From Syntrophobacter sp. SbD2 (GTDB lineage Bacteria > Desulfobacterota > Binatia > UBA9968): a stretch of 47,145 bases of DNA. Positions 8,305 through 35,511 of this stretch are shown one piece after another (within the stretch, counting starts at the first letter, position 1; each line of letters starts with the position of its first letter). The notes under the pieces were generated by a model. The model was not told the origin of the DNA, did no database searches, and saw only the letters and a program-made list of their open reading frames with translations. The position numbers and the translations under genes are program-made. Where the stretch lies: contig CAMDBU010000022.1 of the NCBI GenBank assembly GCA_945889495.1, positions 1 through 47,145 of the forward strand, written 5' to 3'.

Positions 8305-8335
8305 GTAGGGGGCGGGTTTCAAACCCGCCCCTTTT
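8305..8335 (+). terminator. GTAG-foot REP-like hairpin, also a terminator
   Basis: GTAG at 8305-8308 precedes a perfect hairpin with 11-base arms (8309-8319 and 8321-8331, GGGGCGGGTTT against its complement) followed by TTTT. It can end the amidohydrolase transcript. A close copy lies at 18392-18412 on the other strand, so it is also a dispersed repeat. Confidence 0.75.
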
Positions 8336-8923: not shown

Positions 8924-8942
8924 GGGCGACCGCCGGTCGCCC
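8924..8942. terminator. perfect hairpin between convergent genes
   Basis: Arms GGGCGACC (8924-8931) and GGTCGCCC (8935-8942) with a 3-base loop, 10 bases past the cupin stop. There is no U-run, so termination strength is uncertain; it also resembles a dispersed palindrome. Confidence 0.55.
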
Positions 8943-8977: not shown

Positions 8978-9012
8978 GTAGGATGGGTTGATCGCAGCGA
9001 AACCCGACATCC
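8978..9012 (+). repeat. GTAG-foot imperfect hairpin repeat
   Basis: GTAG at 8978-8981 leads into GGATGGGTT, a 10-base loop and AAACCC...ATCC, forming an imperfect hairpin in the gap before the rhodanese stop. From memory, very similar elements (GTAGGnTGGGTTGAGC...AAACCCA) recur in many environmental genomes. Confidence 0.6.
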
Positions 9013-9016
9013 GAGC

Positions 9017-10567
9017 TCAGTGCTTGAGCTTCAACTCCCAGTTCAAATAATTCAGCATGTCCTCCTTGCTGCCGCGAATCGATGGTGACAGGACGACATC
9101 GTTGGGTTTCACTAAACAATCGTCGAGGCCAGTGGAGGTGGCGAAGCCCGCCGCTGTCCAGCTCTTCAGACCGCCGTCGAGCACCAGGACATTGCCGTAA
9201 CCGCCGCGCGCCAATTGGCGCGCGGCGAAGATCGACTGGCGGCCGTCGGCGCAGGTGAGAACGATCTGCCGTGCGCGGTCGGGGAACAACTCGGGAATTT
9301 TAACATCGATCCAGCCGCGGCAAATCCACTTGGCGCCGGATACATGGGCGTTTTCATGCTCCAGGCTGGTGCCGACATGGAGAATCAAACTTGAGGTGGA
9401 TTCGCTCAACTTAAACAACTCGGCGGCGCCGATGAAGCGCAGCCCGCGCCGCGCCATACCGATGGCCAACGGCTCGGCTGCCGCGCTGGCAACCGCGACA
9501 CTCCTGCCGCCGGCGCGCCAGCCGTTAAGTCCGCCTTGGAGCACGCTGACATGTTTGAAACCCATCTGGCGATACCAGTAGGCCGCCATCACCGCGCGCG
9601 CGCCGTGGTCGCTGATGAATATAATGTCGCCATTACGCACCGCCACGAAATCATCGGCGCGCTGCACAGCCTGGCCGCCCGGCAGGTTGATCGAGCCAGC
9701 AATATGGCCGGCGGTAAATTCCGCCTCGGAGCGCACGTCGATCAAGTAATGAACACCGTCGCCGTCATTGAGCCTTGCAACTTCGTCCGGCGGCGTTGAA
9801 GAGATATTTTCCTCGGCGGCGATGCGCTCGGCCGCGGCCAGCGCGCCGGATTGGTTCAGCGAAGCCTTGCCGAAACGGCTCGGCTTATTCTCCAATTGAA
9901 AACCCGCCAACACCCAGCCCATGGTGCCGTTTCTGAGCGCGCGCACGTTGGTCAAGCCGAGACGGCGCAGCGCGGCGGCGCCGATAATGCTGCGGGTGCG
10001 CCCGGCGCAGTTAACGATCACCGCCGGTTTCTTGCGTAACTCATCGACCCAGTGAATCAGCTCGCCGCCCGGCACATTGATGCCGCCCGGGATGCAGAAC
10101 CGGCCGTACTCCTCAGGCGTGCGCATATCGAGGATCGTTAGATCTTCCTGGCGATCGATTAGCGCTTTCAACACCTCCGGCGCTAGATCCGGCACCGCGC
10201 GCTCATGATGGACGCGCTCGCCGAAGGCCTTGCTCGGCACGTTGACGCCGCTGACGGTCTCGCGCTGCTCGGCGCGCCAGGCGGCTAGACCACCGTTGAG
10301 AAGTGAAACATCCTCATAGCCCAGCTCGTTCAACGTCGCCGCCGCGAGCTCCGCCCGCGCTCCACCTTCGTCATAGACCACGATGGGAATCTTGCGATTG
10401 GGCACCAAGTCAGTGATGCGAAACTCGATCTGGCTGCGCGGCAAGGAAGTGCTGTTGGGAATTTGCTCATCGTTGTACTCGCCGCGCTCGCGCGCGTCGA
10501 ACACCGCGAATAGCCGATCGGAGGCCATTAACTGCGCCAGATCGGCGGATGAAATCTGTTTGTTCAT
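9017..10567 (-). CDS. four-domain rhodanese sulfurtransferase
   Basis: The 516-residue protein is four rhodanese domains in a row (about 5-102, 128-225, 262-355, 376-475). The active-site loops read VVYDEGGAR (Asp66), VNCAGRTRS (Cys187), FISDHGAR (Asp320) and LTCADGRQS (Cys439). Domains 2 and 4 keep the persulfide-carrying cysteine, while domains 1 and 3 have Asp there and are probably structural or regulatory. The family transfers sulfane sulfur. I start at ATG 10567 (MNKQISSADL), which begins domain 1; the longer frame would run into the divergent aldolase gene. No signal peptide, so probably cytoplasmic. Confidence 0.88.
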   Translation of the reverse strand: MNKQISSADLAQLMASDRLFAVFDARERGEYNDEQIPNSTSLPRSQIEFRITDLVPNRKIPIVVYDEGGARAELAAATLNELGYEDVSLLNGGLAAWRAEQRETVSGVNVPSKAFGERVHHERAVPDLAPEVLKALIDRQEDLTILDMRTPEEYGRFCIPGGINVPGGELIHWVDELRKKPAVIVNCAGRTRSIIGAAALRRLGLTNVRALRNGTMGWVLAGFQLENKPSRFGKASLNQSGALAAAERIAAEENISSTPPDEVARLNDGDGVHYLIDVRSEAEFTAGHIAGSINLPGGQAVQRADDFVAVRNGDIIFISDHGARAVMAAYWYRQMGFKHVSVLQGGLNGWRAGGRSVAVASAAAEPLAIGMARRGLRFIGAAELFKLSESTSSLILHVGTSLEHENAHVSGAKWICRGWIDVKIPELFPDRARQIVLTCADGRQSIFAARQLARGGYGNVLVLDGGLKSWTAAGFATSTGLDDCLVKPNDVVLSPSIRGSKEDMLNYLNWELKLKH

Positions 10568-14351: not shown

Positions 14352-14464
14352 TAACGTTCTCCGAAAATCTCAGACTAATCTCGGACAGTAACCAATATCG
14401 ATTGGCGACGCAATCCAATCGACGGCGTTGAGCGAACCGGCAGAAGTGGCCAAATCCTTTTGTT

Positions 14465-14548
14465 GTCATTCCCGCGCAGGCGGGAATCCAGGTTTTCTTC
14501 GATCTCGTAGTGTCAGCGAGGCTGGATGCCGGTGTTCACCGGCATGAC
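14465..14548. repeat. cruciform repeat of two hairpins (GTCAT...ATGAC)
   Basis: ATTCCCGC-GCAG-GCGGGAAT (14468-14487) and ATGCCGGTG-TT-CACCGGCAT (14526-14545) are perfect hairpins inside an outer GTCAT/ATGAC and CCAG/CTGG dyad. From memory this is a very common repeat of environmental Proteobacteria. A decayed half-copy lies at 27154-27182. The rest of the 14352-14580 gap shows no gene. Confidence 0.88.
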
Positions 14549-14580
14549 GGATCTTTACTTAGCTGGAATCGCGATGTTCA

Positions 14581-18391: not shown

Positions 18392-18502
18392 GGGCGGGTT
18401 TCAAACCCGCCCCCTACGCGGATCTCTTTATTGCGCCCTTTGCGTTCTTTGCGGCCGCCCTTCCGAATCCGAGTTGCATCCGATTTTGGGCCTTTTGTGC
18501 TC
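18392..18502. repeat. composite repeat inside the ABC operon
   Basis: Three parts lie here: a REP-like hairpin (18392-18412, minus-strand copy of 8305-8335 including the GTAG foot), TTTGCGTTCTTTGCGG at 18440-18455, and TTCCGAATCCGAG at 18461-18473. The last is the exact complement of 19543-19555. Confidence 0.78.
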
Positions 18503-22236: not shown

Positions 22237-22698
22237 CTAATTGACCGGGCTGAGCAGTTCTTTCAACTTCGCGCCCAGCTGCTCGGCTTGGGCCGCCTCC
22301 ACACGACTTTCGAAGAGCGGGAACAGTTCCCGCTCTTCCTTGCGGATATGCCGTTCGAGCAGATCGCCCAAGTCAAAGATCAATTTCGCCAAGCCAGTCC
22401 CCGCTTCGAGCTGGGGCATGGCCAGGCGCAGCTGTTCATGATCGCGCACCAATTGATCGAGCAGCTCACCACAACCCGCCACCTGCGCGCGCATCAGCGG
22501 AAACAAAATTTCTTCCTCGGCTTTGAAATGCGCCACCAGGCTGGCGCGGTAAAATTCCAAAAATTCTTTGGCGCGCTCGCGCAATCCAACCGCGCCCATG
22601 GGTTTAATCTGCCCCAGCCCCTGCTTACGGCAACGTAAAGCGAGCGCCAGGCCGTGATGATGGTCGTGGGAGAGAAGCTGTAGGCTAGGATGACGCAT
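22237..22698 (-). CDS. hemerythrin HHE-domain protein
   Basis: The 153-residue protein has the HHE cation-binding pattern: LLSHDHHHGLALALRC near the N-terminus, HFKAEEEILFPLM in the middle, DHEQL and HIRKEERELFPLF later. These supply His and Glu ligands for a di-iron centre. Such proteins sense or bind oxygen or nitric oxide or protect iron-sulfur clusters. I start at ATG 22698 (MRHPSLQLL); the longer frame runs through the palindromic repeat. It is convergent with the gene at 21844. Confidence 0.85.
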   Translation of the reverse strand: MRHPSLQLLSHDHHHGLALALRCRKQGLGQIKPMGAVGLRERAKEFLEFYRASLVAHFKAEEEILFPLMRAQVAGCGELLDQLVRDHEQLRLAMPQLEAGTGLAKLIFDLGDLLERHIRKEERELFPLFESRVEAAQAEQLGAKLKELLSPVN

Positions 22699-33848: not shown

Positions 33849-34049
33849 ATGACGACGAATCTAGCAATTGACAATCGACTTTTGGAACAAGCGCGCAAGC
33901 TTGGCAAGCAGAAGTCTAAACTCGAAACTGTAAGCGCCGCTCTGGAAGAGTATGTTCAGCGGCGCAAGCGTTTGCGCGCACTGGAAGGATTTGCAACGAT
34001 CACTTTCGACCCCAAGTTTGACTACAAGAGAGCACGGAACAAACGGTGA
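33849..34049 (+). CDS. vapB: VapB-type antitoxin
   Basis: The 66-residue protein reads MTTNLAIDNRLLEQARKLGK at the N-terminus, the ribbon-helix-helix DNA-binding pattern of the VapB/DUF2191 group, and VSAALEEYVQRRKRLRALEGF, followed by a toxin-binding tail. AGGAGCGCAACC precedes the ATG. Its TGA overlaps the toxin's GTG (GTGA). Confidence 0.88.
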   Translation: MTTNLAIDNRLLEQARKLGKQKSKLETVSAALEEYVQRRKRLRALEGFATITFDPKFDYKRARNKR

Positions 34050-34465
34050 TTCTCCTCGACACGAGCGTTCTCTCGTTGGCCTACCGGCGACGGCGACGGA
34101 ATGCACCAGAGTCCAGACGTGTCACAGTGCTACGCCGGCTGATTATCGACGACGTACCGTTAGCCATCCCAGGAATCGTCTTGCAGGAAATTCTGTCGGG
34201 CATCCGCGCACAGCCTCAATTCGATAAGCTGAAAAGAATGTTGGAATCCTTTCCGGTGGTAGTCGCGGCAGAGCGTCATCATGTCATCGCAGCGCAAATC
34301 GCCAACGCTTGCCGTCGAAAAGGAATCGCGGCATCTACAGTGGACTGTCTAATAGCCGCGCTCGCGACATCCCAGCGAGATATCTTGTTCACACTGGATG
34401 AGGACTTCAACCGGATAGCGACGGTTTGCGACCTGAAACTCTTGTCCATCGAACAGGTTTCGTAG
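34046..34465 (+). CDS. vapC: VapC-type PIN-domain toxin
   Basis: The 139-residue protein has the PIN endonuclease acidic residues: Asp5 (LLDTSVLS), Glu48 (VLQEILSG), Asp100 (STVDCLIAA) and Asp118 (TLDEDF). VapC toxins cut tRNA or rRNA. It starts with GTG 34046, which overlaps the VapB stop. The RAYT gene follows convergently within 40 bases, so this pair may mark the edge of the mobile region. Confidence 0.9.
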   Translation: MILLDTSVLSLAYRRRRRNAPESRRVTVLRRLIIDDVPLAIPGIVLQEILSGIRAQPQFDKLKRMLESFPVVVAAERHHVIAAQIANACRRKGIAASTVDCLIAALATSQRDILFTLDEDFNRIATVCDLKLLSIEQVS

Positions 34466-34501
34466 GTCATGATAACCAGGACAGAGAACGAGGTTACAAT
34501 T

Positions 34502-35425
34502 TCACATCTCGACTTTCTTTGTCAGTTTCTCAATCTCCCGCCGCAGACTGTCGTTTTCTCCCATGCGCGCGCTCAATCGGCCGATCAACGTTCCCACCGT
34601 CGCTGTGTCCCTGGCGAAGTAGCGCGCCACTTCGCCCAGTCCGTAGCCCTGCCGGCGTACCAGAACATACGCGATCTTAGTGCGCGCGTGGGAGACTGCC
34701 CAGCTGCGATCGGCGCTCTTGAGCACTGGCACTTGGACCGTCAGCTGCCGGCTCAACTCCTCGACCACTTTATCAATCGGACGACGCTTCTTCGGACGCT
34801 CTTCTTCTTGCTCGTCTTGGAGCTTTTCGCCAAAACCCTCTGATCCCAAAAACCGCTGGTCCGACACTTCGTAGTATTCTTCTTTGTGCCCGTCGTTCAC
34901 GCCGTCGCCGACAAAGGCCCGGTAGCGCGCCCGCCCGCCGAGGACGTCGAGCACCTTACGCGGGTCGATGGTCTCGCTGGCTTTGCCGTCAAGATAGGCC
35001 CGGTGGCCGCTGTATGAATACTTCTCCGGCTCTTTGACCATGCCAGCGCGCACCGGGTTGAGATGAATGTAGCGGATCAGCTGAAGCAGGTACTCGTCCT
35101 TGTCGCAGACGATGGCCTTGTAGCGCCCCTGGAAGACATGGCCGGATTTGCGGTGATGTAGATTGAAGTACTGGCTATAGGACTGCTGGAGCCCTTGCAT
35201 GAATTTGGCTAAAGGCTGGCGGGAGCTTTCGACCAACAAGTGCACATGGTTGGGCATCAGACAGTAGGCGTGGACGGTGTAATCGTAGCGACGCCGGTAT
35301 TGACCCAGCCGGGTTAGATAAACTTGGTAGTCGCCGTCATTGAGAAATGTCTTGCGCCGTTGATTGCCGCGGACGATGACATGATAGAGCAGCCCTGGAG
35401 CAAATAGTCGGGGACGGCGTGCCAT
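34502..35425 (-). CDS. REP-associated tyrosine transposase (RAYT, Y1/HUH)
   Basis: The 307-residue protein is a Y1 transposase of the IS200-like/RAYT kind. GLLYHVIVRGNQRRKTFLND starts the domain, the HUH motif is His60-Val-His62 in MPNHVHLLVE, and QSYSQYFNLHHRKSGHVFQGRYKAI and YIHLNPVRAGMV follow. The C-terminal part (about 215-305) holds a DnaA domain IV-like helix-turn-helix (HARTKIAYVLVRRQGYGLGEVARYF) and a short coiled tail, as in a subset of RAYTs. RAYTs nick single-stranded DNA at GTAG-footed REP hairpins. ATG 35425. Confidence 0.93.
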   Translation of the reverse strand: MARRPRLFAPGLLYHVIVRGNQRRKTFLNDGDYQVYLTRLGQYRRRYDYTVHAYCLMPNHVHLLVESSRQPLAKFMQGLQQSYSQYFNLHHRKSGHVFQGRYKAIVCDKDEYLLQLIRYIHLNPVRAGMVKEPEKYSYSGHRAYLDGKASETIDPRKVLDVLGGRARYRAFVGDGVNDGHKEEYYEVSDQRFLGSEGFGEKLQDEQEEERPKKRRPIDKVVEELSRQLTVQVPVLKSADRSWAVSHARTKIAYVLVRRQGYGLGEVARYFARDTATVGTLIGRLSARMGENDSLRREIEKLTKKVEM

Positions 35426-35478
35426 GAATCAAGCTTGTAGTGAATATGGTTCCCACTGTCAAGTTAGTCGTGTTATCG

Positions 35479-35490
35479 AAGTCTGACCCC
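35479..35490 (-). repeat. 12-bp putative terminus of the RAYT element
   Basis: On the minus strand GGGGTCAGACTT (35490 to 35479) lies 54 bases upstream of the RAYT start codon. Its exact complement is the end of the decayed copy at 36944-36955. Confidence 0.6.
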
Positions 35491-35511
35491 TTCTCTTCCC
35501 GCCTATAAAAT

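Follow-up and report, generated by a model that had tools for sequence, protein, structure and literature searches.

Separate Y1/HUH transposase systems proposed for GTAG-footed hairpins and a RAYT-like gene sharing one contig of Syntrophobacter sp. SbD2

The genome examined here very probably holds several separate Y1/HUH transposase systems, three of which are represented in a single window, the 47,145-nucleotide stretch of DNA that constitutes contig C22 of a 5.64 Mb draft assembly (239 contigs, 95.6% complete). REPs of the GTAGGGGC class, comprising the hairpins at 8305 and 18412 and probably that at 8924, would most likely owe their spread to subclass 2.4 TnpAREP enzymes (RAYT group 4). 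The bulged hairpin at 8978 would be a REP akin to those bracketing an E. coli-like RAYT gene on contig C52, and the RAYT-like gene of the window itself would be a TIRYT that moves, if it moves anything, its own unit of about 1 kb. Hairpin class and gene class are paired, both by position and by co-occurrence across genomes. Occurrence in one window does not make a RAYT and GTAG-footed hairpins partners: this genome carries, side by side, several Y1 genes from different branches, and the hairpin sequence, GTAGGGGC versus GTAGGATG, points to the class of the enzyme. For group 4, which the accessible portion of PMC8266576 does not list among the groups assayed (2 and 3), the choice of partner can thus be tested.

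The features of the window that bear on this reading are listed here; hairpins are named below by position.

8305 to 8331, plus strand: REP of the GTAGGGGC class with GGGTTT arms; GTAG foot at 8305-8308, stem-loop at 8309-8331; the arm type has 41 copies in the genome, this one included
8924 to 8942, no strand assigned: footless hairpin GGGCGACCGcCGGTCGCCC, probably related to the REPs that surround the 2.4-like gene of contig C8, whose arms are similar
8978 to 9012, plus strand: REP with a GTAG foot and a bulged stem, from a different family, GTAGGATGGGTTGATCGCAGCGAAACCCGACATCC, recognized by its sequence and 16 genomic matches
18392 to 18417, minus strand: REP of the GTAGGGGC class with GGGTTT arms; foot at 18414-18417, stem-loop at 18392-18412; one of the same 41 copies
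18438 to 18453, minus strand: a pair of iteron-like units (CGCAAAGAACGCAAAG) upstream of the foot of the REP at 18412
34492 to 35492, minus strand: presumed TIRYT unit, homologous to a unit at G010:C588, with GGGGTCAG at its 5' end (35483-35490) and absent from its 3' end
34502 to 35425, minus strand: RAYT-like Y1 transposase of 307 aa with a DnaA-like C-terminal domain and subclass 2.1/TIRYT features, from profile matches and motifs

GTAG-footed hairpins and their genomic copies

An earlier note had described three intergenic hairpins with GTAG directly before the stem and had joined them with the RAYT-like gene in one candidate system. All three are present and lie, in the gene context of the window, between Pfam-matched genes, where shorter mechanical ORFs overlap them. 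The direct foot holds at 8305, where GTAG adjoins a perfect stem of 11 bp whose loop is a single nucleotide (DNA fold z -4.5). At 18412, on the minus strand, one G intervenes before a perfect 10-bp stem (z -3.8), so that GTAG is not quite directly before the stem, and at 8978 GTAG is followed by a 9-bp stem broken by a 3-nt bulge. The stem GGGCGGGTTT-n-AAACCCGCCC is common to 8305 and 18412. The window holds two footed perfect stems of 9 bp or longer; 200 dinucleotide shuffles gave 0.015 on average and 1 at most. The hairpins at 8305 and 18412 on the one hand and 8978 on the other are two unrelated kinds of REP. The footless hairpin at 8924-8942, absent from the list in the earlier note, probably belongs, as its sequence suggests, to the GTAGGGGC class of 8305 and 18412.

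Genome-wide, the arm type GCGGGTTTnAAACCCGC is present in 41 copies, every one with a 1-nt loop, and in none of the control; other arms occur on the same base, for example GAAAAATC, GCAGC and GTATG in a sample of about 0.45 Mb. When all 41 copies were read, GTAGG adjoined a single side of 23, both sides of none and neither side of 18; hairpins lacking a fixed GTAG had been named in the earlier note as contrary evidence. The hairpins at 8305 and 18412 are short palindromes with an unpaired GTAG at one end and many dispersed copies, as expected of the GTAG REP superfamily; the GTAGGGGC class likewise shares with that superfamily, as set out in the available part of PMC3733652, the form of a short intergenic palindrome with GTAG at one end. 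That the hairpins are REP elements is borne out, and in this genome REPs bracket RAYT-type genes on contigs C52 and C8. The GTAGGGGC string is absent from the main text of PMC3733652, where REP families are drawn in figures. A literature search with GTAGGGGC and related strings yielded none relevant by title among the matches listed, and an Rfam search of the window returned one tRNA and nothing else.

The 8978 type, a GTAG-footed, bulged, repeated palindrome, matches 16 places in the genome when up to 2 mismatches are allowed and none in the control, and is found in 13 of 145 genomes, its own included. Taken alone it folds weakly (z -1.3, with 20 of 200 shuffles equally good). Its relatives lie at the RAYT gene on C52, the protein product of which matches PDB 4er8 over its full length (E 1.2e-49); this gene is bracketed by GTAGGATGTGGTGAGCGCAGCGAACCGCATC and a variant of it. 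Bulged REPs on both sides are also a feature of E. coli TnpAREP, subclass 2.2 or group 2 (PDB 4er8; PMC8266576, as far as accessible), and 8978 has the same build, but it differs in sequence from the REP at C52, the exact form of which occurs only twice, both times at that gene, with 2 further occurrences at 3 mismatches.

Genes that accompany the hairpin classes

Three kinds of gene were compared under one setting: window-type genes, defined as the best matches to P0001 at E <=1e-30 (30 loci, 28 parsed; L173 and L175 left out as unparsed), 2.4-like genes (30 loci, 29 parsed; L147 left out) and RAYTs with 178-206 bits to NF047646 (12 loci). A GTAGGGGC hairpin lies inside 27 of the 29 2.4-like genes (26 or 27, depending on the setting) and within 250 bp of 16, the flanks of the other 13 being free of it; 2 of 29 control segments have one. 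The NF047646-high RAYTs are accompanied by other GTAG hairpins, which were found at 10 of 12 loci (7 or 10, again depending on the setting), on both sides at 8 and at 1 control, none of them of the GTAGGGGC class. Beside window-type genes, the one in the window included, a GTAGGGGC hairpin occurs within 250 bp in 0 of 28 cases and any GTAG hairpin in 2 of 28, with 1 in the control.

The 2.4-like kind was first encountered at L113 and L114, in which the hairpin translates in frame as VGAGFKPAPT. The set was found by protein similarity with the hairpin-encoded insert masked; its query, L114, had been noticed via its hairpins, so that this first set could be biased despite the mask. In a second set, drawn from named loci of many phyla as the best 80 of 580 and reduced by 11 in which the gene was not parsed, a GTAGGGGC hairpin is found in or beside 58 of 69 2.4-like genes and in 4 of 69 controls. 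In L114 (1390-1485), L144 and L128 the in-frame palindrome appears up to three times, with VGAGFKPAPT-like peptides between the HUH motif and the tyrosine. Literature searches for GAGFKPAPT, GCGGGTTTCAAACCCGC and the iteron strings described below gave nothing related by title.

The genome has an intact gene of this kind on C8. It encodes 187 aa, with the motifs NHVH, WQ and YITDNP, and is preceded by GTAGGGGCGACCGGCCGGTCGCCC 16 bp before the start; GACCGGCCGGTC arms are found before the gene, after it and in an in-frame internal remnant. The TAG of the GTAG foot of the downstream REP supplies the stop codon of the gene, and the internal remnant has no GTAG. On C67, a truncated 2.4-like gene is followed by GTAGGGGCGAAAAATCTTTCGCCCCTAC, a REP with GAAAAATCTTTC arms. 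According to the available sections 13 and 23 of PMC6006769, the REPs of subclass 2.4 are long and double-foot forms, and REPs are also inserted in frame in its genes, between the HUH motif and the tyrosine; the hairpin-gene pairing is therefore of a known kind. The C8 gene shares with this subclass NH[IFV]H, WQ, its size (187 aa versus a median of 194), flanking REPs on both sides and, between HUH and Tyr, an in-frame stretch derived from a REP. It differs in the third motif, YITDNP, which fits the printed YIxNNP only in part (D for N), and the genus differs in its feet, with 57 single-foot and 2 double-foot hairpins among GTAGGG hairpins sampled from three genomes. The C8 gene would thus belong to subclass 2.4, an assignment made from motifs and REP insertions rather than from the published TnpAY1 tree.

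The arm sequence seems specific to each copy of a 2.4-like gene. GGGTTT arms, those of 8305 and 18412, were found at 2.4-like genes only in relatives (G017:C372, of the same family, and G085:C115), with a near variant at the 2.4-like gene of the genus mate G002 (L143); a search of the window's own genome, the 95.6% complete draft, yielded no such gene.

Co-occurrence was scored in 145 genomes, one per species, with hairpins counted as matches to GTAGGGGCG followed by CGCCC and a 2.4-like gene called present at E <=1e-12, weaker matches in G079, G112 and G123 being scored as absent. Of the 35 genomes with a 2.4-like gene, 30 had at least 7 hairpin matches and 5 had fewer; of the 110 without one, 16 had at least 7. 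This cut-off was picked after the counts were known, and the association gave p 5e-5 when labels were shuffled within families, a permutation test that is independent of the cut-off. When both gene kinds are considered, genomes with at least 7 matches number 14 of 18 with a 2.4-like gene only, 10 of 24 with the window type only, 16 of 17 with both and 6 of 86 with neither. The 16 hairpin-rich genomes in which a 2.4-like gene was not detected include G033 (4 contigs, 99% complete) and the single-contig G028. Loss of the enzyme gene has been reported for REPtrons (PMC3733652, in the part available) and is a possible explanation for these genomes. The presence of any NF047646 match was tried as a predictor of hairpins and rejected (within-family p 0.19).

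In E. coli, TnpAREP recognizes its REP as a single strand, GTAG is crucial, and the strand is cut at a CT on either the 5' or the 3' side of the REP (PMC8266576, accessible portion). By analogy, a subclass 2.4 enzyme may bind the single-stranded GTAGGGGC hairpin, use GTAG as a guide and cut at an adjoining CT. The sequence CCTC directly 3' of the stem in 11 of the 23 footed copies would offer such a CT.

Iteron-like arrays and alternative readings of the hairpins

Iteron-like repeats, consisting of CRCARAG with two-base spacers in 9-bp units, often three in number, lie 5' of GTAG at 18412 and at many footed copies. The triple-unit pattern has 204 matches in this genome and none in the control, 84, 46 and 108 matches in the genus mates G001, G002 and G003, and occurs in 16 of 145 genomes; it is strongly expanded in this genus. 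Among the 23 footed copies, more iteron units stand on the GTAG side in 18 and on the other side in none, with 5 ties. Under looser rules the corresponding counts are weaker: 6 versus 1 in G000 (6 ties), 14 versus 3 in G001 (18 ties) and 2 versus 1 in G002 (6 ties). In samples, a hairpin within 60 bp of an array lies 3' of it in 14 cases and 5' in 2 in G000 (63 arrays), and in 11 and 2 cases in G001 (25 arrays). The arrays were seen in fixed orientation upstream of several hairpin kinds, at 18438-18453 in the window and at many places in L004-L060 and L269-L308. Literature searches turned up no description of them, a weak result, since publications may show repeats of this sort in figures or supplements alone. 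We tentatively suggest either that single-strand transposition uses the arrays as landing sites of fixed orientation or that an array makes up half of a composite mobile element that has its own enzyme. The polar neighborhood of iterons and REPs, if it holds up, would bear on how REPs choose their sites.

Under the composite reading taken to its full extent, REP and iteron array would constitute one mobile element and the 2.4 enzymes would be bystanders in this genus. The one-sided placement of the arrays in the footed copies and in G000 and G001 speaks for such an element, but most arrays have no hairpin, the spacing between the two is variable, the hairpin class is frequent in genomes that lack arrays, the G002 sample has no side bias (of 15 arrays, one with a hairpin 3' and one with a hairpin 5'), and 8305 itself has no array. 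We consider this reading improbable.

It is less probable still that the hairpins represent terminators of transcription, or stem-loops in RNA that selection maintains, rather than remnants of mobile elements. Their intergenic position would suit this function, 8305 lies just 3' of a stop codon and runs into TTTT, and some other copies run into T-runs. RNA pairing does not explain a foot that is one-sided in 23 of 41 copies and never on both sides, however, and the agreement of 41 copies in their arms and in a loop of exactly 1 nt, together with the presence of these palindromes in and beside 2.4-like genes, likewise argues against this reading. A secondary use of some REPs as terminators is compatible with their spread by 2.4 enzymes.

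The RAYT-like gene of the window and further palindromes

The RAYT-like gene was correctly described as retaining its HUH motif, present as PNHVH (Y1_Tnp match, E 9.8e-17), and as carrying a DnaA-like domain. This tail scores below the Pfam cut-off (20.2 versus 31.5 bits), and residues 200-304 match positions 333-436 of TIGR00362 (DnaA) at E 7e-7. In a comparison with solved structures, neither P0001 nor the C8 protein gave a match at E 0.001. The motifs NHVH, FQ and YIHLNP and the HTH/DnaA-like tail are those given for subclass 2.1 in Table 1 of PMC6006769, in the part available; section 20 of that source states that no REP-like sequences were found near subclass 2.1 genes, that these are probably the TIRYTs of PMC3733652, and that the end repeats of TIRYTs mostly share GGGGWSAS.

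Such a GGGGWSAS-type motif, GGGGTCAG, is found 65 bp 5' of the start codon in the window gene and in its paralogue on C195, adding to the likeness to TIRYTs as described in the accessible parts of PMC3733652 and PMC6006769. Outside this genome the nearest homologue is that at G010:C588, with 78% identity; it is flanked by 20-bp inverted repeats, both ends being present. Homology between the two covers 34492-35492 of the window including both ends, which argues for a unit of about 1 kb of its own kind. The window copy differs in that its 3' repeat is no longer recognizable, the motif having been lost there. Among the 28 window-type genes, the motif occurs upstream in 11 and downstream in 7. A gene for a VapC-type PIN toxin (34046-34465) directly adjoins the unit. 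The DnaA-like tail was considered as a reader of the 9-bp iterons and rejected: no iteron pair lies within 300 bp of 30 parsed genes, and G009, with 14 window-type matches, has 0 iteron matches.

The partnership proposed in the earlier note, in which this DnaA-tailed RAYT recognizes and spreads the GTAG hairpins, draws on the shared window and the intact HUH motif and on an excess of hairpin-rich genomes among those with the window type (at least 7 matches in 26 of 41, versus 20 of 104 without; raw p 1.9e-5), an excess also visible where the window type occurs alone relative to genomes with neither gene; yet the association disappears within families (p 0.18), genomes such as G060, G083 and G085 are hairpin-rich without a window-type gene, no GTAG hairpin was found within 300 bp of the gene or its C195 paralogue, and the near-absence of such hairpins beside window-type genes agrees with the published account of subclass 2.1, so that we regard it as extremely unlikely. 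The earlier note had named as contrary evidence hairpins that are equally abundant in close relatives lacking any RAYT, and G033 and G077 (96% complete, 190 contigs) hold 29 and 38 pattern matches (5 and 2 in the controls) with no match to NF047646 or PF01797.

Palindromes of other kinds were also seen. On C18 (L003, 900-2600), a further Y1 gene with a 248-aa frame and PNHVH has a pair of hairpins on each side, GGACA..TGTCC and GCGGGTTAGAAAACCCGC, ending in CTCC (GGAG backwards); from their sequence, these pairs look like REPINs of another family. The CGGGTTAGAAAACCCG hairpin has 3 copies in a sample. Within the window, two opposed hairpins occupy 14464-14549, ATTCCCGC-GCGGGAAT after TGTC and ATGCCGGTG-CACCGGCAT on the minus strand with CGTC before it, and look like the CGTC-tagged REP class in the available part of PMC3733652. 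Long perfect or near-perfect palindromes lie at 22312-22338 (27 bp) and, inside a rhodanese-like gene, at 9202-9227 (26 bp).
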